Shown here one piece after another: positions 16,975 through 56,496 of a stretch of 64,000 nt of DNA. Each line of letters begins with the position of its first letter. Positions within the stretch are counted from its first letter, which is position 1. The notes under the pieces are model-generated. The model searched no databases. It worked only from the letters and a program-made list of their open reading frames with translations, and had not been told where the DNA came from. Source of the stretch: Lotus japonicus (taxonomy: Eukaryota > Streptophyta > Magnoliopsida > Fabales > Fabaceae); assembly GCF_012489685.1 (NCBI RefSeq), contig NC_080046.1, positions 46,525,176-46,589,175 on the forward strand, given 5' to 3'. Both the position numbers and the translations under genes were made by a program.

Positions 16975-18059
16975 TCTATTGTTGATTGTCTTTGACCTTT
17001 GTCTAGGTTTCTTCTCTTTGAAGAAAATTTGTGAATCACATTAAAAAAAAAAGAGCTGTGAAAAAATTATTAATTTCAAAACTGTACATACCATGCATAG
17101 TGTGATTTAGGGACCACAGAGTTTTATCATTCTTGCATATAAGTATAACTAGATTGCCAATTCCCTTCGTCAGATCTTGTACTTTTTAAGTATCTTTTAC
17201 AAGATATTTTTAGAAAATATACATTTTTTAATTACTTTAATTGATAATTGATACATAACTAATTTTTTTTTGTCACAAGAGGAAAGAAAGATACATAACT
17301 AATTTAGCGATATTTTTTTGAACGAATAATTTAGTGATAATTTGTAAATATATTAATTTGGTTTTGCGGATTGATTAGTTAGACAATGACTCTATATTTA
17401 GAAAGGTAATATTATTGATTTTTCAAAAAGTAATTATCGTTATTATTCACTGATTGAATAAATTAAAATAAATCAAAATATTGATCACAAAATTGAAAAA
17501 AATTAATAATGTATTTTCCGAAATAACCATTTAAGCATATATGATAACTATTTAAAAAGTAATTAGTATTAGTTTTAAAGTGGGTGTTTTCTTGATATTC
17601 AGTTACCATATAAGAGCTTCTCGTTTACGTGGGGAAGAGATCATGAGTGAGGCAACTCTTTGAGATCTAGAGTCAGATACGGCGCATAGGGGTAAAACAA
17701 CGAAGTGATAAGAAGCGTTGTATTAGATAAGTGCGCTAAATCTAACAAAAAAATCATTAGGTTTTTATTTATTTTTTATTAGTTTATTTGGTTCAAGCAT
17801 GGGCTGAGTGTAGGGGTGTTCATCGGATCGGATCGGATCGATCCGATGAAACCGACAAACCGAACCGAACCAAAGCAATTGGATCGGTTTTTTTTGTCAT
17901 TCGGTTCAAAACCGATCCAAATAGATAAAAACCAACGAAGATTGGTTCGGTTCACGGTTTGAAAAATTAAAAACCAATGAACCGATGAACCGAACCGATG
18001 ACATATATTTATTTATAAAATATTTTAAAAAAATAAATATATATGAATACTTATTAAAA
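16975..18059. other. Spacer with a hAT-like GGATC/CCGAAC-rich stretch
   Basis: The first 800 bp are AT-rich without a gene. From 17812 to 18005 the sequence begins AGGGGTGTTCATCGGATC and then alternates GGATCGG, CCGAACC and GGTTCGG blocks that can pair with each other. This is the form of the subterminal region of some plant hAT-type elements. No transposase and no second end are seen. Confidence 0.45.
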
Positions 18060-18314
18060 AAAACATAAACCTAACCACATCCACTCACTCATATATATAT
18101 CTGATATCCCAGACTCCCAGTCACGCTCACCCATAACCCTAGCAAGTCCCATACGCAGTCACGCTGGTGAGCATCCACCAGATCGGCCACCACCACCATC
18201 GGCCAGCTCACAGATCACCATCGCCGCCGTCACGGTTCCACCACCGCCACGCCTCCACACGACATCCGTTTTCACCACCCAGTCTTCACTTTCCTCTTCC
18301 TCTATTTCAGTTTG
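18060..18314 (+). other. Leader-like, C-rich segment ending in a splice donor
   Basis: The composition changes sharply to C-rich CCACCACC-type sequence typical of plant 5' leaders, and the segment ends at TTTG|GTAAGTGAG, a near-perfect donor. It could be a non-coding first exon of BDP1 or of a separate transcript. If transcribed, the 104-bp inverted repeat at 18566 would lie in the following intron. Confidence 0.4.
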
Positions 18315-18456
18315 GTAAGTGAGTCTATCTATTTTAGTTTTCCTCTTCCAAATTTCAGTTTTCGTCTCCCTGTTGCTGTTCTATTTTGCTAGTTTTTCCT
18401 ATTTCTTTTTGTTATTCTTCGTTTGTTGTTGTTTCTTTGTTACTATTTCATTGTTC

Positions 18457-18568
18457 TTGTTTTTTCCCTGTCCCGTTCTGGAGCTTTTGTATGTAAATGG
18501 CACAATAAAGCTTGTTGTTATTGTTTTTTCCCTGTCCCGTTCTGGAGCTTTTGTATGTAAATGGCACA
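18457..18568 (+). repeat. 48-bp direct repeat, 64-bp period
   Basis: 18457-18504 is repeated at 18521-18568 (TTGTTTTTTCCCTGTCCCG..AAATGGCACA), with no difference I can see. The second copy overlaps the first bases of the inverted repeat that begins at 18566, so the two rearrangements may be linked. Confidence 0.9.
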
Positions 18569-18799
18569 CTCTATTTATAGTTTTTGGGAGAATTAGGATT
18601 CACTTTTTAGGGTGTACCTCTTCAGCATCATGAATCCATAGGACTATCATGAACCATAGAAGATGAAATAGCCCGAACACAAGCCCGAGGAGCATATTTC
18701 ATCTTCTATGGTTCATGATAGTCCTATGGATTCATGATGCTGAAGAGGTACACTCTAAAAAGTGAATCCTAATTCTCCCAAAAACTATAAATAGAGTGT
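18566..18799 (+). repeat. 104-bp inverted repeat containing an SMG9 exon piece
   Basis: Left arm 18566-18669 and right arm 18696-18799 are reverse complements position for position with no gap. The only difference I find gives a G.U pair in RNA. The loop is 26 nt (18670-18695). Positions 18673-18733, covering most of the loop and the inner 38 nt of the right arm, are identical to 28267-28327 in SMG9 exon 7 in sense orientation. The inner 38 nt of the left arm are therefore antisense to SMG9. The outer part of the arms is not from SMG9 exons. A third, rearranged copy of outer-arm blocks follows at 18797-18856. Whether it is transcribed cannot be seen. Confidence 0.9.
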
Positions 18800-19020
18800 A
18801 CCTCTTCAGCATCATGATTTATAGTTTTTGGGAGAATTAGGATTCACTTTTTAGGACTATGCATGCTTGATTCACTTGAGCATAACACATCTATGTCAAT
18901 TTAGAGTATTGGATCCTTTTAAGCGGTATTTAAAAGCTCGTGCTTGGTCGAACCCGGTTCGACCATTTAAAAAAAACCACGGAAAGGATGCGTTTTAGAA
19001 GACTGACAGATTAGGTCTCC

Positions 19021-19781
19021 TCACGGCTTAAAATCTTGTCTCTCTCTGCTTACGTGACGTCGCAACCGCTTCATCGCCGTCGCAACTGGTTCACTTCGCC
19101 TGCACGAGCTCGCTACCTCGCCCAGTCCGCTCCGAGCCCACCGTGCCTGCAGGAGGAGAGCAACAACGACGTCTTTGTCTCTGGCCACAACGTCTCCTTC
19201 TTAGTCCTGGTGATCGTCTTTATGGTTGTTATCAGTATACTACAGGTACATGATGTCATTATTCTTCTTCTTATTTATCATATGGGATGTATGAAACTTC
19301 ATTGTTATGGAACTTGGAATAGGAATTTGATGTTAGGAATGGACAAGAGTTATAGGTGAAGGAATTACATTATCACATTTTGAGTTCAATTGTTTCAACT
19401 TGTGATTTTTATAATATCAACTGTCACAGTTCATTCACTATAATGTCATTTGATTCATGCACTATACATACTTGATTCCACTCAGTGGAGATTGACTTTG
19501 TTGTTATTTAAATAATTAGTCATATTAATATATTATTTCCGAGCTTAACCTTGTCTGCTATGAAATGGCGAATTGATATTCTAGTCTAAGCTCTCTGGCA
19601 AGGATGGTGGGGTGGCTGCAATTTTGTTCAAAACCATACATTTTTTGACTTAGTTGCGTTGATATTTAAGTTCTGTTTGATAGGTGTGCCTGATCTGCTA
19701 CTTACAATCTGCTGTTTTTCAGGATAATTCTTGTATGGTTTTCCAGCTTTAGCTAGTATAGTCAACCTCATTAATTACCTC
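19021..19781 (+). other. Probable 5' leader and first intron of BDP1
   Basis: 19040-19245 is GC-richer than its surroundings and reads open, but the peptide (SAYVTSQPLHRRRNWF..) matches nothing I know. It stops far before the BDP1 start and looks like a leader exon. An intron ending in the TTTTTCAG near 19722 would bring the ATG at 19782 into the second exon. Support is compositional only. Confidence 0.4.
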
Positions 19782-22700
19782 ATGGATGCTTTTGATGATA
19801 TTCTATCCGGAGCTCCTGCTCCACGTGGTAAGTGCTACACTCAAAAGATACTGGGAAAGCTTCTTATTTTTATCATGTTCGTGTCACGTGGTTATATTTT
19901 ATTCTTTTGTAGCTCGTCGAGGTAGCAAGTTTATGCCAAAGGCCAAACTGAAACAGCTTCCTCAAAAGGAAATATCTGCATCAGAACACGCGACCTCATC
20001 TAAAGATGGAGAGAACGTGCCTGTTGCTTCATCAGCCACAAGCACAAAATCAGGAGGAATTTTGAATGAATGTCATGATGCTGTTGCTTCAACTTTAAGT
20101 ACATCAGCTGAAGATTCTATCAGGTCCAATCATCGACCACAGGAAGAACTTTCAAATTTGGAGGATGCCACAAAATCAGCATCTGAAGGCCTTGAGGCGG
20201 GTTTAGTCACTAACTCTATTCCTGAGACCAATCTCAATAATGGTAAGTTAGTTATGCTTTCACATTGTTTGTGTCTGTGAAGTCTCTTTGCTTCAGGTTG
20301 AACTTGTTCACGTGTCACAAGGCATAAGACTTCACTTGGATTGAAGTTAGTCTGATCCATTTGGTATTTATTATTTGGTTTAGGGGCAAAACAACCAATC
20401 CACCCTGCTAATGCTGTAGAAAATGAAAATACTGTGGCTGCTCAATCTACAACTAACTCATCCATCAGTAGGATGGAAGAACCACCTAAAAGTGGGGAAG
20501 GTTCAATTCCTGATAGCAACAAAAATTTGGAACATATTGATAATTCAGTGCCAGTTATCCCAGATGCAAACTTCAAGAGTGCTTTGGAGAATAATGCTGT
20601 AACATTTGAGAGCAATATTCATTCAAATTTGAACTCTGGAAGAGAACAAGAGGTACAATTTTGAATTTTCGTTGTTTTTTTCCATGTAGTTCTACTGCTT
20701 CAGATGGATGTAATAAACTTATGGAGCAAATTTTTGTTTTCAGGCAGTGTCTGGGGAATCGGAATGGAATCCTTTCAGCGACGCCCTCCCTGATCCTGGC
20801 ACTAGGAATGGTTAGTAATATCCCTGCTATCCTAAATGTGCTTCATATAACTGAAAAGGTAAACCTGTGTTTGTTTTACTGTAGCTCGTAAGTTTCAACC
20901 CAAGATTAAGCCACGACCTAGAGTAAGCATTGCACCGGCTATCGCTTCTGCATCATCTAGTGATATGATGGAAAAGTCTACTCAGTTGCATGTTTCTTGC
21001 ACAAATGAAGTTCAATCTTTTCAGTTTAGTGGTGATGGCATTGGTGGGCAAAATACATTCTCTGAAGACAAAAGAAACCTGGCATCAGTTACTCCTTCCC
21101 AACCAGATTCCCTGAATGCTATGCCTTCGGAGGTTACAGCTCATGATGGAACTAGAGATTCGGCTTCTAGTTTTGGAAAACCAGCTCCTGATAATCTTAC
21201 CACCCAAGATCCATTAACCTTAAATGAAGCTGCAGTCTTCGAGGAGGATGATACTCACACTAACATTAGAAGGTTGGAAACAGAGGTGAAATTTGTGTGA
21301 TTTCAAAAATATTATAGTTTCCTGTAAAATATGCCAAATAATTAATTGATCATTTTTTTGATATAAAATTGATCATGGTTATTATTTTTGTCAGGAAGTT
21401 GTGGACTTGAATACTGCCTGCTCAAATGGTGGCGTCTTTGATTATCAATCAATAGATTCTGCCACAGATCCAACTTCTGAAATTCCAGTGAATGAAGAAT
21501 TGACAAATGCTGCAGATTGTCCCACGTTGGCTGATGTTTTGCATAAATATGTTACTGTAGAAAAAGAAGTATATATCGGTTATTATGATTTATCGTGTAT
21601 TTATTTTCATTTTTCTTTTTATGAATCTTATTGTTGATGATTTCTTTTATTTCATTTACTATGTTTCTCAGGTTGCCAATGGAAGAAAGAAGGATAGTTC
21701 CCTGAGGAAGCGCAGAAGATCTACTGCTGGCGAGGAGGACAAAGGGGGTAAAACCGCAAGGCAGCTGAGAAAAAGTGCAGCTCGAGAACCTGCTAACAGC
21801 TCATTGAATAAGGATGTTGATGATGATGGTGACATTGACCCTCTGTATAATTATAATATAGATGAACTAGAAGAAAATGATGATGAAGACGAACTAGATT
21901 ATTCATCCAAGAAGAAAACAACATCAACCAGTTCAAAGAAGAAATCTGTGGCTAAAAATGAAAAAACGTCTCAAAAGCGTAAGAAGTCTAATGATGATTT
22001 AGAAAATACTACTAAAAAATCTCTGAAAAAGTTCTCTCATTCCACCCTACGAAGAAAACGATGTGGTAAACTTGCTAAGACTATTTGTGTTTTTAACTTT
22101 TTTTTTTGTTTTGTTTATTTTATCTTGTATGATTGTTATAAGTGTTTTCCTTTTATAGAGGATCTGCTGAAAACTCCTGAAGATGAATGGGATCCTCGAA
22201 ATATGCCTATAAAGGATATTATTATACTTGCAGAATATAAGGAGCGGTTGGCGGTGTGGATTCTCAATTTTAATCCCTGTATTACAATGCCCAACAATTG
22301 TTAGTATTGCATGATGGCTTAAGTTTTCACCAACTGTTCTGTTCGTTTCTCTATGTAGAAAAAGGACCCAACAACTTCAAAAACATCTTCCACCAATCAA
22401 AGGTACACTCAACTTTAGTAACAGTGCATATCTAGATTTTATTTAATTTTCTGGTCCTGTTAATCCTTGTCTAATATGAAAGTAGAATAAGTACACTGCA
22501 AAATCAATTAATTTGGAAAATTAACTGCTGTAAACATCTTATTTACTTCAATTCTTTGTATTTTTTTACAATCTTATACTATTGAATTAAGTTATATCTG
22601 ACAATGTATATAAACTTATTTGATAAAGGAAATGCTTTTTATTCCTTCTCTTTTCTTTCCCTGGAGACAAGTGAATGTACTTGGACATAACCATCATATG

Positions 22701-24349
22701 GCTGAAGTTATTCTTCTCTCTTTTAACGATTCAATTACTTTCCTCCATCAAATTATCAAAATGGTCTGTAACTGAATGGAATGGAATGTAATGCTGTCAA
22801 TAAAGTGCATTGTTTTCACTTTTGCTGGCCTAAGTTGGGTTGAGGGCTGGGGCAGGAAGAGGGCTATAGATTTGATAGTGGTGCTTTTCCTTGCGTCCAC
22901 AATGAGATGTAGTCAGTACAATTTAGGGATACAAATTGAAGGTCCTTGTATTTTTGGTGTTCGTCAAGGCACTCATGCTTTTGGATCACTACTTCCTCTC
23001 AGTATTTGGAGAACAGAAATGTATAGGGAAACATTATATATAATATAAAATGCGCTCCATATTATCCACTAGCTATTGTCACTGTCACTTCGAAGTTCTA
23101 TGTGGTGCAGTAAATAGATTTTAGTTTGCAAAATATTTGTGTGCAGTGGTGGAGATCCTTTTTATGAAGCCGGTGCCAATTACGAAGAGGGGTTCTTTGG
23201 CTCAGAAAACCCAAATGATAATCAAGACACTGAAAATGTTACAGACACTACCGCTTTAATTAATTACCAGTCCTTCATGGACAAGGCACCTAGGGGAAAA
23301 TGGTCAAAACAAGACACTGAACTGTTTTATGAGGTATCTGCATAATTCTCACAAGATTTATGATGTTATTATTTCTCTTAAACACAGCTGCATACCTACC
23401 AATTATATCATTTGTGATTTGGGGAATGGGAATGAGAGAAGGAGCAATCTTATTTAGTAAATTAACTAATTTTTTTTTAAACACAGGCTGTTAGGGAGTT
23501 TGGCACAGATTTTTCTATGATTCAACAGCTTTTCCCTGATCGAACACGTCATCAAATTAAGTTGAAGTACAAGAAGGAAGAGCGGCAGCATCCTTTACAG
23601 TTATCCGATGCTGTGAATAGTCGTTCAAAAGGTTGAACTCTTTATTTACCATTCTGTATTGTTCTCAGACAGTGTTTACTCTTTAAGCAGAGTCCAGAAA
23701 TGATCCTCAAGATTCATTTCTTTTGATGACTTATTCTTTACTTTATCATGGCTAAAAATAAGTTTTTAATGGTTTACTGTTCTTCACATATACTCTATGA
23801 TTACTGAATATCTATTCTTTTCCTCTGCTAGATCTGTCTCATTTTAAAAAGGTGATTGAGCGGTTGCAACAAGCTTCTGACAAGGCTGAACAAGACGCCA
23901 ATGAAGATGTTGAGGACCTAACACCTGAAACTAATGTATGCATTTTCTGCCCATTTAGTTTATCTTCTGATGCCTCCTTTCTTTTGGTGTACATAGTTCA
24001 TGCTAATTTTCTTATAAATGCCATAATTATCAGATCACCAAGATAAATTGCCTTGATTATTTGTTCTCTCCTATTTTTTTCAATAGAAAATGATTAAATC
24101 CACATATTAGTAGCTTTCTGAAGTCTGAATAGTATATTATCCCCTAATTGGCTTTCAAAACTCATTTTATGCATGCAGGAGGAGGTTGCAACAACTGAGA
24201 AGGACACTGACGATGTTGAAACAACTAAGCAGGACACCAATGTTAAAGATCAGGAAGATTCTGCAGCAATTCATGATCCAGAGCAACCTGATAATGATGA
24301 TGATGATGAGGATTACTCTCAAATATGGTCTTATACAAGTGAATTTTGA
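19782..24349 (+). CDS. BDP1: Transcription factor TFIIIB component B'' (BDP1)
   Basis: BDP1 is a subunit of TFIIIB, which recruits RNA polymerase III to tRNA, 5S and U6 genes in the nucleus. Thirteen GT-AG exons sum to 2427 nt, giving 808 residues with frame kept throughout: 19782-19827, 19913-20242, 20384-20652, 20744-20810, 20885-21285, 21395-21568, 21672-22065, 22159-22253, 22359-22402, 23147-23333, 23487-23631, 23832-23935 and 24179-24349. The identifying part is the SANT/Myb domain across exons 10-11 (GKWSKQDTELFYEAVREFG, then RTRHQIKLKYKKEER), preceded by PEDEWDPRNMPIKDII. The N-terminal half is Ser/Thr-rich and low in order, with two short related basic segments (RRGSKFMPKAK and RKFQPKIKPRPR). 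A Lys/Arg-rich stretch follows, and the C-terminus is acidic (DNDDDDEDY). The ATG opening MDAFDDIL is chosen because BDP1 proteins begin with a similar acidic start. Confidence 0.88.
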
Positions 24350-24951
24350 TGATTACTAGTAGTATTATGGTCCCATTGTGTTTTAATTTTTTTAATGTGA
24401 AATGTGATTATTGTTGTAACGGGAAATTCTTTTAATTACTGATATTCACGAGATCACTTCTTTTGATTTTTATAATCAAGGTCCTGGGCATTTATTTCCT
24501 ATTTTTTTCCAATCTTGGTTACTCATGATATGATTTTTTTCCAATCTTGGTAGTTACAAAGAATATGATCCATGAAAAGCTATTCAAATAGCACCCTGGT
24601 AATTAAATGGATAGTTGTTATCTCTTTATGCGTTGGCAAATTGCCCTTTAAAAATGATAAAAAAAAATTAGTTTCATTATTTTCATTCCATAAAATTTAA
24701 GGAAAATGAGAATGTAGTTCATTCCACAAAGGTGGTGTTTTTCATCATTTTTTGAATTAAGACTATTTTTTTAAAAATAAATAATAGGTTTTTTATTTCA
24801 TATTTATAAAATGCAAAAGTTAATAAGGAAAAAAGAATAGTCAATTTTTCTAATACATTTTGTCAATTTTTTAAGGGCAAAATACTTCGGGGCTTTTCCA
24901 ATATTATAAAATTGATACTTTTCAAAAAAAATTATAAAATTGATCACTTGC
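24350..24951. other. Spacer between BDP1 and SMG9
   Basis: BDP1 3' region followed by AT-rich sequence. No gene is seen. Confidence 0.6.
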
Positions 24952-25255
24952 GACGGAAAATGAAACTGTCACAAAGTCATTGAATTTGAGACGGAATATA
25001 GTTCCGTGACAGAAGCCCTACCAGCTACTTTGCGACGGTAGACAAACCCGTCACAAAATTAATGAGTCTGCGACGGAAACTAAATCAGACACAAAACCTT
25101 ATTGAGCATATTTGCGACGAAGAATATATCCGTCACTAAAGTTCGCGCGGGAAAATTCGTCACAAACTTCTTGCAATCGAGTTTGACACAGCGACAGAAT
25201 ATTAGAGGGAATTTGCGACGGCGTTGTCGTCCTTAGTTTCCGTCGCTAAGTCGGT
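24952..25255. repeat. GCGACGG / CCGTCGC repeat cluster upstream of SMG9
   Basis: About ten copies of TGCGACGG or its complement (CCGTCAC, CCGTCGC) occur in alternating orientation, each separated by 10-30 nt. This is the subterminal-repeat style of plant CACTA-type elements, where such motifs bind transposase. No CACTA end was placed. The cluster ends about 110 bp before the SMG9 start codon and so overlaps its promoter. Confidence 0.6.
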
Positions 25256-25363
25256 AAATTGTTTATTTTTTAAATTATTTAAAAAAATGACCCAAATTAT
25301 TGGAAGCACGAAGATACAAGAGAAATAGTCAACACTCGTAAAACCCATATTCACTCACTCACA

Positions 25364-28300
25364 ATGGCGGGCTCTGAGCCCTCTCCTTCTCCAAAAATCC
25401 TTCTAGCAAAGCCCGGTCTCGTTACCGGAGGCCCCGTCGCCGGCAAGTTCGGCCGCGGCGCCGCCGGCGAAGATGATTCCGCCCAGCACCGTTCTCGTCT
25501 CCCTTCTGTCGCATCCCTCAACCTTCTCTCCGATTCCTGGGACTTCCACATCGATCGCTTTCTCCCCGTAAGTAATCTCCCTCCAATCAATTTTTCGCTC
25601 AACTCCATAGAAATTAATCGCAGTTGAGTTGGGTTTTCAATACTCTGCAGTTTTTGACTGAAAACACGGACTTCACTGTGATTGGAGTGATTGGGCCACC
25701 AGGAGTTGGCAAGTCCACTATAATGAATGAACTTTATGGCTTTGATTCAAGTTCCCCTGGTGAGTTTATTCACATTGTTTAATTTGTTAGCATATGTTTT
25801 TGTTTTTAGTTTTTAGGGTGAAAATGAAATGCTTTAGAGTTAGTTCTGTTAGAAGCTACAAGTGTTAGATTCTGAGTGAATGTGGGTTCGATTATGTGCA
25901 AATCGTGAAGTAATTTGTAACTTTGATGTCTGAGCCTGCAGGGATGCTACCACCTTTTGCTACACAGTCTGAAGAGAATAGAGCAATGGCAAGGCATTGT
26001 TCTACGGGCATTGAACCGAGGATATCTGCTGAACGTATTATTCTTCTTGATACTCAGGTAATGTTGCTAGACTGACACCTATACTTGAAAGAGTGAAACA
26101 AAGAGAAAAGAGAGAAATGATAGATATGATATACGATATATAGCCCGCTCAAAAGTGCACTAAATAAGCTCCAATAAGTACTCTTTGGTTTTCATCCAAA
26201 CGGGTACACGATGTAACAAAGAAAGAAATATGGGAAAAATGGGGTGTATGTAGGTGTCAATGTTGTTGGTTTCTGAAAGTGAGGATGGCTGCCCATAGTA
26301 ACTTCATTGGTCAAAAAGTTTTTTTAACCATGTAGAAGTATAAGGGATAATTTCCCCTTCATTCTTTTATTTTCTTGATTTTTGTTTGGGGTTTTGTTTG
26401 CTTTCCATTGCTTCCAGTGTTACTCTTTCTTATCTTATGATTTGTGGGATTTCCAGTTTTACATGTGTACTTATTTATTTATTTATTTATATACTTGTAG
26501 CCTGTATTTAGTGCTTCTGTTTTAGCTGAGATGATGAGACCAGATGGCTCTTCAACAGTTTCAGTGCTAAGTGGAGAATCCATGTCAGCTGAATTGGCTC
26601 ATGAAATTATGGGTATTCAGGTACACAGCAACTCCCAAGCATAGTTTTTTTTTTCTTTTTCGTTTTTTAATGAAAATATAATTCTGGGTATAAACTTTCT
26701 AGCTTTCCTTATCATGAGTGGATTTTTTTTCCTTTCTTTTACTTGTTCTGCTGTATCTGATGAAATTGACTATGTTGGGATGCTGCAAGGAATCTTTGTA
26801 GCTTGCTGTTCTTCTAGCATCCGTATGTCATATTCTGCTGGTGGTGTCAGAGGGAGTCCATGATGATTGCATGTGGCATTTGATGTTGACGGTATGTGCT
26901 TGAATAATTGCGACTTTATATCGTGTTGAAGTGTTTGGTATCTTGGAAGCTGTTGGCATTTATTGAACATAATATGGTATTGGTATCAGCTCTTATATCA
27001 TAGTTTTTCTGTCATTTGAAGTTTCTGGCTTCTCCTCTTACTAATAACATGTATAGGATGTTATTGACTGAAAAAATAGAAATATCATTTTCTGGTAGCA
27101 TCTTATTGCCTGCAATTTGGTAGACAAGTTTTTTCTGGGCCTCCTTGTTTAATTTAAAATTCTTACAGATCTTGTGTTCTGCACTTAATTTTATATAGTA
27201 ACGTCAGCAAAACCTATTGATGTGTTGAAAGAGGACTGACCATGCTGCACTTGTTATCATGTAGGTTGACTTGTTGAAGCATGGCATTCCAGACCCATCC
27301 TTACTTGCTTCATCCCATTCACAGAGCTCTAGTTCAGGGCATGAGAAAGATAACAAACTTTCTGGACGTGAATACATGGCTACTCCTGTTTTTGTCCACA
27401 CCAAGTAAGAAATATCTTTCTAACTTCACGCATTGACAAGAAATAGTTGGCATAAATGAGTGATCACATGCTGTAATTATTGTGATACAGCCAAGATAAT
27501 CTCCAAGATGCATCATGATTGCTCCAAACTGTTTGGCTGCTCTTGTTTTTGGTTAATTATTTAATGAAAAGTAGAATTCTAAAAAATTCAAGCCTAGCCA
27601 AGACTCGGAGGGAACTAGTACTTAGAATTGACGAACGGTTCACTTATTTTACAGCTTGATTAGCCACTTGCTATTAACCAAATTCCCTCTTAGTCTGTCA
27701 TTCTGTGTCAATTGATTTTTAATGAATTAAATAACCTTTTAAATTAAGGTCTATGTTATCTGATGCGTGTGTCACTATATATTTTAAAATATATAAAAAA
27801 ACCAAGAACCAAAGATTGGAGAAGTTTTTAATGGTGTGCTGATACTGACTAATGGTAAAAGAAAAATAATTACAAAAGAGGCTCAGGCTGATGCTAGCGT
27901 TAGCCTAACACATGGACACAGTACTGATATTATGCATCACATGTGCTTTCTTTGAAGTGAGAATCTCTAGAATGAACTTTATGTTGTATAATGTTCAACC
28001 GTGGTGTTTCCATCACAATTGTGCTGACTTTAATATGCAGTCTATTTGAAAATTGTATAACAAATTAATAATTATCATTTGTTCGGTGTTGCCTTGTATC
28101 TACTTTTTCCCCTTATTGAAATAAGGTTGCTGCACAGTGAAGGACTCACTTGTACTCTGTTTTGACTATAGGCTGCATGATCAAGAGTTTACTCCTAAAA
28201 ATTTTGTACAGTTGAGGAAGACACTCATACAGTACTTCAAACCGTCTTCTTTTGTGAGGGAACATGCCGAACACAAGCCCGAGGAGCATATTTCATCTTC

Positions 28301-28882
28301 TATGGTTCATGATAGTCCTATGGATTCTAATGTGCCAAGTTTGTTTGCAATCCCATTTAAGAAAAAGGATGAAAATCCGAGAGCTCAGCATGGAAGTTAC
28401 ATTTCAGCACTATGGAAATTACGGGATCAGGTCTCTCTCCACTGCTCATGCACTCAAATGAATTCCTCAATAGGATCAGATTTTCAAACTCATGGAACAT
28501 TGCCTGAATAAGGATACCAAAATTGAAAGTTTTTGTTAAAAATCAAAGCATTTACTGCATTTCTATTTCCTATGTAATAAATATCTTCTTTTTCAATAGG
28601 AACTTTGTGCTTTTTATTCTTATCCTAATACGAAGTTATACAGATAAAAAAATAACCCTTGTAGGATTTATCAAGTTTTGTGAGAAAAAAATGTTTGACT
28701 CATTGTGATATGTTTTTCTTGTTTGACAGATATTATCCATGAAGTCACCATCTTTCACTAGACCTGTGTCTGAGCGTGAATGGTTAAAAAATTCAGCCAA
28801 GATATGGGAACAGGTAAAAAACTCCCCAACGATGTTGGAGTACTGCAGAACACTTCAACAATCGGGTATGTTTAGGAGGTGA
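25364..28882 (+). CDS. SMG9: Nonsense-mediated mRNA decay factor SMG9
   Basis: SMG9 partners SMG8 in the complex that controls the SMG1 kinase, which phosphorylates UPF1 during nonsense-mediated decay. Eight GT-AG exons (25364-25567, 25651-25759, 25942-26057, 26501-26620, 26802-26891, 27265-27404, 28172-28430, 28730-28882) give 396 residues. The G-like domain opens with VIGVIGPPGVGKST, a P-loop at about residue 80. ERIILLDTQPVFSASVL follows, matching the LDTQP motif of SMG9 in animals, then LAVLLASVCHILLVVSEG. The C-terminus has EREWLKNSAKIWEQVK and ends MFRR. The protein is shorter at its N-terminus than the human one, as is usual in plants. No stop or frame break is seen. Exon 7 positions 28267-28327 recur exactly in the inverted repeat at 18.6 kb. 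Intron 3 holds a MITE, and the promoter region abuts a GCGACGG repeat cluster. Confidence 0.92.
26073..26259. mobile_element. MITE in SMG9 intron 3
   Basis: The 187-bp element has ends TGACACCTA and TAGGTGTCA (perfect 9-bp inverted ends). Its interior is purine-rich (GAAAAGAGAGAAATGATAG) like the element at 4742. It sits wholly inside the intron. Confidence 0.65.
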
Positions 28883-29242
28883 AATCTTATCAAAGGCAGA
28901 AAGATTCAAGACAATCTATGTAACTGCGTTCCTAGATTTATCTTGTTTTTGATACAAAATTATTAAATTTGTGTATGAAACTCACTTTGTCAGCGCTGTT
29001 AAATTTAGAAGATATTTATTTGTTAAAATTTTGGCGTTTTTCACCTTTGACGGTGTAATATTGCTCTTGTAGTTTAGTGAGCCTATGATGGGTGTGAAGG
29101 TTTGGGTCAGTATTATTCTATGTTGGGTGTAGATTCATTCTTTTAGCATTTCTCTATTTCGAGCAATGAACATGCTGCAAAAAAAAATTCGGACAATGCT
29201 GGAATGTGGACCGTGGTGCACCATCAAAACTGCAGTTCTAAA
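28883..29242. other. SMG9 3' region
   Basis: Probable 3' UTR and flank. Nothing else is recognised. Confidence 0.6.
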
Positions 29243-29429
29243 TCCACAAGATGTTGTGGCGTGATGATTAGCTCACCTCGTTCCTTAATCATGAGGTCGG
29301 GGTTTGATCATCACCCATGTAAATGAAGCTCATTTTGTGGTTAGCCATTTATCGCTTAGTGCGTGCACTTGCTGCTAAGGGATTAGTCACGATTGTCAGC
29401 GGCGAATACTCTGGGCTAAAAGAAACTTA
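29243..29429 (+). mobile_element. tRNA-derived SINE with target duplication
   Basis: The head resembles a tRNA gene, with an A-box-like GTGATGATTAGCTCACC and a B-box-like GGGTTTGATCATC. An unrelated body and a short A-rich tail follow. AGTTCTAA flanks it on both sides (29235-29242 and 29430-29437), fixing the insertion. It lies between SMG9 and HRD1. Confidence 0.7.
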
Positions 29430-29838
29430 AGTTCTAATATAATCATAATTTTTAGCAAGCATGTAGGAAATTGAAAATACGTAGGAAACATAGTAGAATC
29501 ATTTAAAACAAAGAGCCTCGGCCATGAGAGGGGATGATGCATGAGTCATTGACCACAAACCGCCAAGGGAAGGTCTTCTCCTCGAGCCACAAACGCGACA
29601 CTAGCACCACGAGAAATGTCATATGCAGCATCAAAATGTAATGAAACATGACTATATTTATTCATAAAAATGTAATTTCCCTTAAAAAAAAATCATACAC
29701 TTAAAATATTAATTAGATTTATGTTTTTAAAACAAGTATGTTAGCGATCTAGATCGCTAGAATTAGAATTATTGGGAAACAATACGGAATAATATTTACT
29801 ACTAAAACATTTAATTGGCATGTCCATTCATCAGCACA

Positions 29839-36999: not shown

Positions 37000-38135
37000 A
37001 ATAATAATATTAATATAGATACATATGTAAATATATAAAAATTAACACTCAAAATTATGATAATAATATTTAATTAAATAATTTCGAAATTTAATATTTA
37101 TTAATTAAATAAGTCCGAAATAATAAATAATTTGGTAATTCTAGAGAATGATAAAAGGTCAAGCATTTCTTCCTCTACAATAATGGTTGAGAATGATTCC
37201 AAGAATATGCTGTTTGATTTAAGAAATAAGGAAACAAATCAAGGGTGAATCAAAGGGAGGGCGGCTAGAGATCAAATCCTAGGTAGACAACTATAAATTG
37301 ATGAGGTTCTTGGTGGTAAAGGCAAGTTCAGAGGAAGAGAGAAAACAGTTGTATGAGCACTTATGAGTTGTGGTTCCGTCTTTGAATCACAATTCCAACA
37401 AAAGAGTGTGAGAGCGTGTTCCATCTTTGTTTCAATTGTGTGGAAAGTAACGAGTGGAAGAGAAGGAGTGATCATTTTAGTATGGTCTAGATACCATAAT
37501 AAGTGCAGCCACGTTCAACACGTAATCATTTGATCACTATACATTTTGTTAAGAATGCCCAAAGCATGCAAGCAATATCCTATGGACATTTACACTACAA
37601 AATGTACTTGTAATCAAATGTTTACCAGTTGAACATGACTGCACTTGTAATGGTATTCAGACAACACTAAAATGAACTCTCCTTCACTTTCATTTGTTGT
37701 TTTCCACACGATTGAAATAAAGGTGGAAGACGCTCTCACACTCAATTGTTAGAATTGTGATTCAAAGACGGAACCACAACTCATAAGTGCTCACTCAACT
37801 GTTTTCTCTCTTCCTCTTCTACCACCAAAAACCTCCTCTATTTATAGATGTCTACTTAGGGTTTGGTCTCTAACCTCCATTTGATTCACCATCGATTTGT
37901 TTCCTCAATTCCTAAATTAAACAACATATTCCTTGGAATAGTTCTCAATCATTCTTGTAGAAGAAATGTTTGATCTTTTATCATTCTCTAGAATCATCTA
38001 ATTATTTACTATTTTCGGAACTATTTAATTAATTAATATTAAATTTAAAAATTATTTAATTAAATATTATTATCATAATTTTGAGTGTTGATTTTTATAT
38101 ATTTAGATATGTATCTATATTAAACTAATATTATT
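37000..38135. repeat. 1.1-kb foldback (long inverted repeat)
   Basis: Left arm about 37000-37519 and right arm about 37628-38135 are reverse complements with scattered differences and a few small indels. Exact pairs include 37361-37380 with 37767-37786. The loop is about 108 nt. A third, direct copy of the right arm lies at 39600-39985. The arms contain no ORF. The sequence may derive from an LTR, but no TG..CA ends were fixed. Confidence 0.8.
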
Positions 38136-38504
38136 AAGGTACGATAAAATTAGGTGTTCACTAATATATTTAAAGCGGGAAAACATTAGAAAACCCGTAA
38201 AGTTATGATCTTCGCGATCAGAGGTGGATCCGGGCTCTAATTAATTGTGTAAAATATATTAGTTTTTAAAATGCTTATTTAATTTCACCCAAGAAAATGT
38301 TTATTATTTATACATATTAAATTTAATTAATAGAGGGAAAATAGATAATTTATAAATTAGGCCTAACAAGCTTTGGAGATTGCGCCTACGTACCCCCTTT
38401 CAACGAAGGGGTCTTCAAGGTGCCTGATGAGAATCGTGTCTCGGCCTACGTATTCTCTTTAGAGAGGCATCAAGGTAACGTAGTTTTGAAGGAAAGCTTG
38501 AGAA

Positions 38505-38690
38505 AGCTCGATTACCAAAGGCTTGAAGAAGTCCGAGCTTGATTTTGAGAGGCTTAAATAAGTTGGAATTCGATCTTGAAAAGCTAAAGAAGTCGGAATT
38601 TGAAGTGCTTGAAAAAGGGTGTTTTGATTTCGAAAGGCTTGAAGAAGCCGGAGTTTGAATTTGAAAGGCTCGAAGAAGCTTGGATTAATA
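38505..38690 (+). repeat. Imperfect ~32-bp tandem repeat
   Basis: About six diverged units of the form AGGCTTGAAGAAGTCGGAG followed by TTTGATTTTGAA. Reading it in one frame gives a Leu/Glu/Lys-type pattern but with stops, so coding is unlikely. Confidence 0.8.
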
Positions 38691-38884
38691 AAATATTTTG
38701 GGAGTTTTGAGAAGTTATTATTATGAATTTTAAAAGAGATCTCCTAGAATTTGGAATGATATTTTAATGACATGGAAAATACCTTTGATAGTTTGTTATG
38801 TTTTATATTTTATTGTTATTTAAGTATTTCAACAGATTTTTTAAAAATCTTATGGATTTGGGTTTATTATTTACGGTGCTTTTT

Positions 38885-38915
38885 TTTTTTGATAATTTGG
38901 AGGGTCTGAGACCCA
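38885..38915 (-). mobile_element. Tiny LINE or SINE tail insertion
   Basis: Thirty-one bases, poly-T followed by GATAATTTGGAGGGTCTGAG, are flanked by ATTTACGGTGCTTTTT on both sides (38869-38884 and 38916-38931). A 16-bp target duplication with a poly-A tail on the minus strand is the mark of target-primed reverse transcription of a heavily 5'-truncated element. Confidence 0.65.
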
Positions 38916-39599
38916 ATTTACGGTGCTTTTTAAGTAAATATAAGTATATAACAACTTTCAAAAAAAAAAGTAAATATAACAAATTAATTATTGTTTTTAT
39001 TATCTTCTATTATAGAATCGAATCTAATTAATTAAAGAAATCCTATATCCAGGAAAGGAAGAAACGAAAAAAGGGAAAGAGAGGAGCGACACGGGCATAG
39101 ATCAATAGGGATGGAGGCGGCCTGGTGGTTCAGGCAGTGGAGACAGGGGGACGAGGGGTGATGTTTACTGTGTAGCCCTTTGGTCTTAAATCTTAATCAT
39201 TACTTTAAAAAACAAAACAATTTGTTTTCCAAATTCCAATATGCATTCAGAGGAGAGGCAAAGCAGAGATAACATCTTATTGAAATAGTTTCTATATCAC
39301 AAACAAAATCATATTAGAATACATTTGTATGAACTCACAAACGTATAGGCATAGCATCATCATGAAATTCACAAATTCGTATCAAGTTTATAAGTTCAAA
39401 GATTTACCCATTAACACATTCAACGTGCAATTGATCAATAGCAAATATTAATAACCATGTTATCTAGCAAAGAGAAAGGATAATCATGTTAAAGAGTATC
39501 ATGTTATCAAACCTGGTTGAAGAACAAGACAAATTAGGACTTGATGATCCTGCAAATAGACTTGTCACCTGAAATTCAGTCTCATACTTGATATCTCTT

Positions 39600-39985
39600 A
39601 TTTTAGAATTGAAGTTCAAGAATGGAACTACAACTCACAAGTGATCACTCAGTTTCTCCCTCATTTTGAACCTTGCCTCTACCACCAAGAACCTCTCCTC
39701 TATGTATAGTTGTGTACCTAGGGTTTGGTCTATAGTCTCTTTGATTCACCCTATATTTGTTTCCTCATTTCCTAAATTAAACAGCATATTCCTTGAAATC
39801 ATTTTTAAGTAGAATAAGAAATTATTCTCTAGAATTATCTAATTATTTATTATTTTAGGATTTATTTAATTAATAAATATTAAATTTCGAAATTATTTAA
39901 TTAAATATTATTATCATAATTTTAAATGCTATTTTTATTAAATTAATATTATTAAGTAAGGATAAAATTATGTGTTCACAATTAT
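39600..39985 (+). repeat. Third copy of the foldback arm
   Basis: It matches 37755-38160 in direct orientation: GGAACTACAACTCAC, then AGGGTTTGGTCT, TTGTTTCCTCA and a long AT-rich end, finishing GATAAAATTATGTGTTCAC. It shows that the arm is part of a dispersed repeat. Confidence 0.75.
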
Positions 39986-43500: not shown

Positions 43501-44438
43501 GGGTTAAATATGTTCTCCGTCCCTGAACTTTGAGCGAGATCTGGTTTCCGTCCCTCGCCGGAAAATCTTCCTAGCGCCATCCTCAAACTCAATTGTTTGT
43601 ACGGAAACCGTCCTTGCCGCCGATATAGCTCCGGCAGCCGTGCACGTGGACATGCCACGTCATTTAATGAAATGATGTGTAAATTTTTAAAAAATAAAAA
43701 CTAAATAATTTTATTTAAATTAAGTCCTCAAATCTTAGCTAATTAAAACTCTAACCCTAAAACTAACATTAACACTAACCTAATTTCATCTCCTAATAAA
43801 ATCAGATCAAAACCTCATTTCATCTCTTTTGATTTTCATATTTCAATTCTAGAAAAAATACCCAGTAAATATCTTCTTCTTCATCTTCTTTAACACTCCC
43901 CTCCCTTCTTCCTCCCCCCAAAACCAAGTAACAACACTGGCACCAGAATCGAACACCACCAAGGACGCACCTTTTCTTAATGTTTCCCTCATCTGGGGTG
44001 ATGGGCATGTGTCAAAATTGTTACTTTCCTCTTAAAATATTTTCTTCATTTCATCTGGGTTAATGGGTTTGTGTCAAAAGTGTTCATTTTTATTTTTCGA
44101 TGTTTTCTTCATACCAAACACTGCAAACCCAAAACAGAGAAGAGGTCTAATTTCTTCATTCCCATGGCCGCTCATCCTTACCTGAACCCTCTCATAGCTT
44201 CAGTTTCGTTCAAACATAGTATAAATGCATGCAATTGCAAACCCCTTTTTGCTTGCAGTATTCAATGTCAGTCCAGCAATCCTCTCTCTTGACAACATCA
44301 GAAGGCCAACTGGGTAATCGCGGAGATGGAAGACCACCACGCACCGACTCCTGCTTCCTTCGCAGAAACTCCTTCTGCACGAACCCAATAGCTTCAGATC
44401 CGAAATGGGTCCACGAAAAAGAGGAAAAGATTGAAATT

Positions 44439-44469
<31 letters not shown>

Positions 44470-45061
44470 AAGAGTACTTGAGGGTCATGGACTTGGTCGA
44501 CCATGCAAGGAAAGGCGAGGTGGAAAACGCTGGCGCAGCCGTTGACGGCGGCGAGATGGTGTTGTAGCGGAGGAGATCGATCTGGAAAAGGCGGAGGCGA
44601 GTGGATGCTCCTTCGAGAGATTGCAGATGCTTCGTCTCGGTCTCATCGTCTAGTTTTGAGGGAAAAAAAGGAAAAGAGAAAGTTAGAATAGGAAGATTGT
44701 GTTTGTGTTAGTTTTAGTTTGGAAAGGGGAAAAGGTGGGGAGTGTGAAAGAAGATGAAGAAGATGATATTACTGTATTTTTTGGTTAACTAGTTTTAGGA
44801 TTATTTAGTTTAATTAGGGTTAAATCAGAGGGCTTAATTAAAATTTAAAAAACAAAAAAAATTAATTTTTTTATTTAAATGCCATGTCATTTCATTAAAT
44901 GACGTGGCATGGCCACGTGCACGGCTGCCGGAGCTATATCGACGACAAGGACGATTTCCGTACAAACAATTGAGTTTGAGGATGGCGCTAGGAAGATTTT
45001 CCGGCGAGGGACGGAAATCAGATTTCGGTCAAAGTTCAGGGACGGAGAACACATTTAACCC
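43501..45061. mobile_element. Mutator-like element (non-autonomous MULE)
   Basis: Long terminal inverted repeats of about 180 bp begin GGGTTAAATATGTTCTCC on the left and end mirrored at 45061. The 9-bp target duplication TAATTTATT is at 43492-43500 and 45062-45070. Helitron A carries the empty site (single TAATTTATT near 41415), which proves the insertion. The interior (43680-44880) has no transposase. It holds GC-richer sequence with a possible short ORF from 44164 (MAAHPYLNPLIASVSF) that could be a captured gene piece. Confidence 0.9.
44440..44473 (+). repeat. (GAA)n microsatellite in the MULE
   Basis: About eleven AAG/GAA units inside the MULE interior. Confidence 0.95.
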
Positions 45062-56340: not shown

Positions 56341-56496
56341 TATGCTATGTTTGGTTGGAGGGAGGGGAAAAGAAATGGAAAGAAAACACGGAAATTGAGG
56401 AGTGAATTTGGACTAAGGTTTAATCCAAGTTCACTCATCGATTCCCGTGTTTTCTTTCCCTTTCTTTTCCCTTCCCTCCAACCAAACGAAGCCATA
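56341..56496. mobile_element. Foldback MITE, Harbinger-like ends
   Basis: The ends ATGTTTGGTTGGAGGGA and TCCCTCCAACCAAACGAAG are inverted repeats extending about 50 bp inwards (GAAAACACGG / CCGTGTTTTC). The outer motif CGTTTGG..GGAGGGA resembles the ends of the 6-kb Harbinger element, so it may be mobilised by that family. Length is about 156 bp. Confidence 0.7.

Follow-up and report, generated by a model that had tools for sequence, protein, structure and literature searches.

The window, i.e., the whole stretch of 64,000 nucleotides from Lotus japonicus that was analyzed here, contains a long hairpin next to a truncated transposon, both located upstream of a gene for a protein similar to component B″ of TFIIIB. 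The likely start codon of this gene was placed near 19782 by eye, and its best match is the L. japonicus protein P0121 (93% identical), probably the product of a second copy of the gene on contig C2 (see below). Further downstream lies SMG9. Its joined exon peptides match the L. japonicus protein P0001 (LOC130722104), listed with 100% identity over 396 amino acids, and a tblastn search with P0001 yielded eight coding blocks in this region. Past SMG9, open frames were found that encode a RING finger and an N-terminal domain of the synoviolin type.

A repeat search of the window yielded two hairpin arms of 108 nt each (18563-18670 and 18695-18802), which are 98% complementary and separated by a spacer of 24 nt. 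Position-by-position comparison of the 108 arm pairs revealed two mismatches, namely 18565 C opposite 18800 A and 18611 G opposite 18754 T, the latter being a G.U pair in RNA. The first-pass annotation had described a near-perfect hairpin of 104 bp with one G.U, and this structure is real (105 pairs, one G.U within 18566-18799). Folding of 18540-18870 gave z-scores of -24.1 for the + strand and -29.2 for the - strand, with 0 of 100 shuffled sequences being as stable on either strand. The tip of the hairpin had further been reported to be identical to a piece of SMG9 exon 7 over 61 nt, and all 61 positions do agree (18673-18733 = 28267-28327; the donor piece falls within tblastn block 7, aligned 28170-28433). 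The antisense piece in the left arm, given as 38 nt before, extends over 39 nt (39/39; 18632-18670 is the reverse complement of 28289-28327). In addition, 39 nt of the left arm (18573-18611) recur outside of the hairpin at 18817-18855, the resulting direct repeat bordering 18612-18816, and a block of 22-26 nt is found three times (18608-18633, 18732-18757, and 18792-18817). A genome search using 18566-18799 as query (553.7 Mb, 65 contigs; all four candidates scored) located the full hairpin at a single genomic place, and the partial matches on contig C2 correspond to the SMG9 61-mer and to 43 nt of the outer arm. A scan of 17500-29500 yielded no match to an Rfam family above the cut-off, the best one being MIR171_1 with 38.9 bits compared to a cut-off of 48. 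This sub-threshold match (18724-18823, - strand) overlaps a smaller nested hairpin and probably reflects structure alone. The features of the locus are compiled in Table 1.

Table 1. Features of the hairpin locus and its SMG9 donor exon (positions refer to the window; N, native right flank; X, native sequence just left of N; F, filler).
Feature	Position	Strand	Basis
Left copy of inferred 8-bp target-site duplication (GCTGAGTG)	17803..17810	+	C2 empty site; right copy absent
5′ part of non-autonomous hAT-like transposon	17811..18514	+	84% match to C1 copy; 3′ end absent
Tandem copy of transposon 18451-18504, patch start	18515..18568	+	98% over 54 nt; exact 18521-18568 = 18457-18504
Whole hairpin	18563..18802	+	Repeat search, pairing check, folding
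N1, copy of native right flank, outer left arm	18569..18611	+	43/43 identical to C2 empty site
X1, copied from native GTGTACCTCT (adjoins N on its left side in empty site)	18612..18621	+	Exact block
F1, filler TCAGCATCATG, 11 nt	18622..18632	+	Absent from empty site; inverted 18733-18743, direct 18806-18816
Left-arm copy of SMG9 exon 7 in antisense (28327 to 28289)	18632..18670	-	39/39
Hairpin loop	18671..18694	+	2 bases matching none of the three sources, then SMG9 28267-28288
Loop and right-arm copy of SMG9 exon 7 in sense (28267-28327)	18673..18733	+	61/61
Right arm, outer part (filler, X, and N1 in reverse complement)	18734..18802	-	Arm pairing, block parse
Second direct copy of X and filler, joining hairpin to native flank	18794..18816	+	22-nt exact copy
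N2, native right flank, empty-site alignment resumes	18817..18855	+	Alignment with C2, 18817 onward
Coding exon 7 of SMG9, source of the 61-nt piece (28267-28327)	28173..28430	+	tblastn with P0001; exon edges by eye

The region around the hairpin exists a second time in the genome: window 5951-37214 recurs in reverse orientation on another chromosome, as C2:94326001-94356000. Across the three longest blocks, 344 substitutions separate the two copies over 29,511 aligned bases without gaps (1.17%), while identity including gaps amounts to 96.9-97.7%. It is a young segmental duplication with TFIIIB B″-like, SMG9, and synoviolin-like genes, traced here over the compared stretch. SMG9 was matched block by block on C2 as well, with at least two amino-acid differences. 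The C2 duplicate contains neither the transposon nor the sequence patch following it in the window, and its empty site reads GGGCTGAGTGTACCTC (C2 sequence GGGCTGAGTGTACCTCTATTTATAGTTTTTGGG...TTTTTAGGACTATG). Only 7 bp, TACCTCT, separate the GCTGAGTG target site from flank N on C2, and in the window copies of TACCTCT are found solely inside the patch. Two pieces were gained in the window compared to the empty site, namely the transposon's 5′ part (17811-18514) and a patch of 302 bp (18515-18816). The clean target site of the duplicate makes it most likely that insertion of the transposon and the subsequent repair took place later than the duplication. The youth ascribed to the hairpin by the first-pass annotation is supported by its absence from a duplicate that differs by 1.17% substitutions only. 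At a substitution rate of about 6-7 × 10⁻⁹ per site and year, this difference corresponds to under about one million years.

The transposon remnant starts at 17811 with the terminal repeat TAGGGGTGTTCATCGG, followed by a subterminal region, a TATA-like stretch and a 5′UTR-like exon (by eye), a GTAAGTG donor-like site near 18316, and the start of an intron. Its longest relative, matching at 84% over 17811-18522, is a complete copy of 1051 bp at C1:61422407-61423457, and the 5′ part is found in at least 38 further places at 85-91%, which are lower bounds as 40 of 149 candidates were scored. Judged from this one relative on C1, about 360 bp of 3′ sequence and the 3′ terminal repeat are missing from the window copy. 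In line with this, the 3′ terminal-repeat pattern was not found in 17811-20000 and GCTGAGTG occurs only once, without a second copy, in 17701-19000. Relative to the C1 copy, the site has lost sequence at the putative break: not only the ~360 bp and the 3′ terminal repeat but also the second copy of the target site. Out of 11 relatives examined with a simple end pattern, seven run TAGGGGTGTTCATCGG...CGCGAACACCCCTA and four gave no end pair, with the window copy retaining the 5′ terminal repeat only. In six of the seven relatives with both ends, 7-8 of 8 bases of the flanking target-site duplication match, and in the seventh 2 of 8; where several end pairs fitted a relative, the best-matching one was retained. 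The 8-bp length of the duplication, together with the form of the terminal repeats, which we take to be typical for hAT elements, points indirectly to the hAT superfamily; a transposase was not found. The C1 copy comprises a TATA-like stretch, a 5′UTR-like exon (by eye), GTAAGTG...TTGCAG, and a reading-frame start MAHNARAIGTQSVSDSS... of 26 codons. It may be read as deriving from a transposase gene by internal deletion and could serve as a lead to the autonomous parent.

Of the 302 nt of the patch, 263 lie in exact blocks of at least 10 nt that match the transposon remnant, the local flank, or SMG9 exon 7 in direct or inverted orientation; 1000 first-order Markov sequences gave 8 nt on average and 52 nt at most. 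Coverage was similar for blocks of 9 nt (264; null maximum 91) and 12 nt (253; null maximum 25). This null is a resampling, not an exact shuffle, and since the three sources were chosen after inspection, it serves only as a yardstick. The uncovered bases are 18515-18520, which belong to the part of the tandem copy with one mismatch, 18671-18672, and the three copies of the filler TCAGCATCATG. A greedy parse assigned 18744-18755 and 18756-18796 to the flank in reverse, and an inverted match of 26 nt connects 18792-18817 with 18732-18757. SMG9 supplies 39 of the 108 arm pairs, the other 69 being made up of flank, the 11-nt filler, and a few transposon bases. That the block of 22-26 nt present three times is one foreign piece was ruled out, as the empty site shows it to consist of native GAGTGTACCTCT plus the 11-nt filler. 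The core of the filler, CAGCATCATGA, has an 11-nt match inside the TFIIIB-like gene (20073-20083, - strand), which is a possible template. With an expectation of about 0.03 chance matches per 11-mer in 64 kb on both strands and four filler 11-mers tried, this match could be due to chance and is only a lead. At most junctions the switch points show microhomology of 0-3 nt, and at one of up to 8 nt (TAGAGTGT/ACACTCTA), values that were obtained by eye, without a null, and that depend on the assumed direction.

The sequences themselves show that the C2 site is empty, that the window transposon is truncated, and from which three sources and in which orientations the patch was copied. Based on these, we consider it very likely that the hairpin is the scar of a double-strand-break repair at a hAT-like transposon, made by template-switching synthesis, a reading derived from a single assembly. 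We infer that the insertion came first and that a single repair event, carried out by Pol theta or a similar polymerase, followed; the order and direction of synthesis given here are inferred as well. A non-autonomous hAT-like transposon would have inserted upstream of the TFIIIB B″-like gene, and a later break at or near its 3′ end would have led to the loss of ~360 bp and the right target-site copy. The DNA end may then have been extended by a template-switching polymerase copying the transposon, the local flank, and the 11-nt filler, as well as SMG9 exon 7 in both orientations. Since the inverted SMG9 pair would have allowed the new strand to fold back on it, the outer stretch would have been copied again in reverse, giving rise to the arms of 108 bp, before the end was finally joined in a manner resembling a Pol theta-type templated insertion. 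Reconstructed by hand, the synthesis can be written in either of the two directions. The first-pass annotation had placed the SMG9 source 9.6 kb away from the hairpin, and an identical piece is present there. However, a second identical 61-nt SMG9 piece is located on another chromosome, so that the source at a distance of 9.6 kb is only one of the candidates.

Loci for new plant miRNAs are assumed to originate from inverted gene copies, and the hairpin had initially been explained by such an inverted duplication of its target. As an alternative to break repair, it might accordingly be a young MIRNA or hairpin-siRNA gene that arose by inverted duplication of SMG9 and now regulates SMG9. The foldback with SMG9 similarity on both arms, the near-perfect pairing, its youth, and the promoter-like transposon sequence just upstream, which is oriented into the hairpin, would all agree with this, and in Arabidopsis 16 young MIRNA foldbacks with arm similarity to protein-coding genes have been described (PMC1790633). 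What holds of the earlier explanation is that SMG9 sequence is present in both orientations; with only 39 of 108 pairs derived from SMG9 and the rest mostly from flank and filler, a plain SMG9 inverted duplication was rejected as the full origin on the basis of the block parse of the patch. Given these 69 pairs of other origin and the fact that repair accounts for how the hairpin arose, we regard this alternative as quite unlikely, even though its functional half, a regulation of SMG9, is compatible with an origin by repair.

The remaining explanations are far less probable still. That the hairpin itself is mobile and picked up SMG9 sequence as a MITE, a foldback, or a Pack-type element could be suspected from a long inverted repeat beside a transposon, from the terminal-repeat-like block of 22-26 nt found three times, and from the 39-nt direct repeat around 18612-18816. 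This repeat encloses only part of the hairpin, however, no dispersed full copies as expected for a foldback element or MITE were found among the four candidates of the genome search, a short target-site duplication at 18563/18802 was not seen by eye, and the arms carry copies of the local flank, which are not expected in a mobile element. The idea was therefore rejected as hardly credible. An equally poor candidate is the reverse order of events, with the window copy being ancestral and the C2 copy having lost transposon and hairpin. The comparison covers only two copies, which leaves some room for this. Yet C2 has a single target site without a footprint, unlike the usual outcome of hAT excision, and would additionally have required a clean loss of the patch. 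Palindromes are error-prone in long-read assemblies, and with a single assembly at hand the hairpin might be an artefact resulting from a fold-back read or a misjoin. The mismatches, the asymmetric loop, the filler, and the ordered partial repeats are not what a read with a missing adapter would be expected to yield, and the Lotus Gifu assembly was based on about 100x PacBio coverage (PMC7508351), making such an artefact highly improbable as well.

With regard to a possible output of the locus, the transposon remnant looks like a promoter, a 5′UTR, and an intron start aimed into the hairpin, and this promoter-like sequence makes small RNAs from the hairpin plausible. A transcript of the + strand would carry 39 nt antisense to SMG9, equivalent to 19 possible 21-mers with exact matches to both SMG9 copies, and its outer arm corresponds to the flank that lies upstream of the TFIIIB-like gene in both copies. 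As far as can be predicted from its sequence, RNA originating from the promoter-like remnant would be near-perfect double-stranded RNA and would be expected to yield heterogeneous hairpin siRNAs, not one miRNA. A survey of Arabidopsis described such a mixed-siRNA stage, assumed that a promoter is nearby, and noted a weak action of DCL1 on perfect double-stranded RNA (PMC1790633). Most likely, the hairpin has no present selected role and the locus is neutral by default. It appears unlikely that a small-RNA gene is seen here at its birth, with one repair event having built a hairpin containing an exon of a nonsense-mediated decay (NMD) factor behind a transposon promoter, the siRNAs of which would now be directed against SMG9 in both copies and, via the arm sequence derived from the flank, against the region upstream of the two TFIIIB B″-like genes.

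The proposed origin shares features with several known systems. Templated insertions of alternative (theta-mediated) end joining likewise contain direct and inverted copies of the flank and of a distant locus at a break (PMC11724301, PMC11292364), whereas here the 108-bp arms reach past the donor into flank and filler, the site is a truncated transposon, and the enzyme is putative. Among break-site insertions in yeast, two inverted fragments from one distant locus form a described class, termed "distant inverted insertions" (PMC11724301), in which two inverted donor fragments overlap, as do the SMG9 pieces of 39 and 61 nt with their inner ends 22 nt apart. Stem-loop synthesis by human Pol theta was described to begin from two terminal base pairs and is tied to inverted-repeat repair products in the same article, which also cites templated insertions in plants (PMC11292364). 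A proposal for mammals is that perfect stems, including those of microRNAs, arise through template switching (PMC8794818). As in the present case, a near-perfect stem would result from template switching and not from gradual mutation; in contrast, the mammalian switches are replication switches, with the largest pattern comprising up to 59 bp, while here break repair in a plant with a distant coding-gene donor is proposed. Young plant MIRNA loci formed by inverted duplication (PMC1790633) similarly carry gene-derived sequence on both foldback arms and a promoter-like sequence nearby; here, most of the arm is not gene-derived and the locus is a putative one. Plant filler DNA at T-DNA or break junctions, as far as described in the sources consulted, is also a patchwork of copied pieces, but the present patch lies at a natural transposon site and has a long hairpin as its product. 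Among the best matches for literature on how hairpins and MIRNA genes may arise by template switching or break repair (titles and abstract openings), no plant case of such composition stood out, which is weak evidence of novelty. Likewise, the best matches listed for the Lotus microRNA literature contained nothing on the hairpin locus. In our judgement, cases in which the inverting step can be seen while its templates remain identical are uncommon. Here all of the pieces can be read (donor exon, flank, and transposon as well as the empty site), so that a repair route to a hairpin beside promoter-like sequence becomes testable with small-RNA libraries.

Additional inverted repeats are present elsewhere in the window. 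A cluster of long ones occupies 37010-39949, e.g., 37330-37537/37610-37817 (208 nt, 86%) and 37010-37120/38013-38123 (94%), and perhaps consists of nested transposons. Another inverted repeat of 221 nt (86%), with its copies 1.1 kb apart, was found at 43501-45061. Finally, 56344-56492 contains a 73-nt inverted repeat with 88% complementarity and a 3-nt loop, i.e., another hairpin, which judged by its mismatches is perhaps older.
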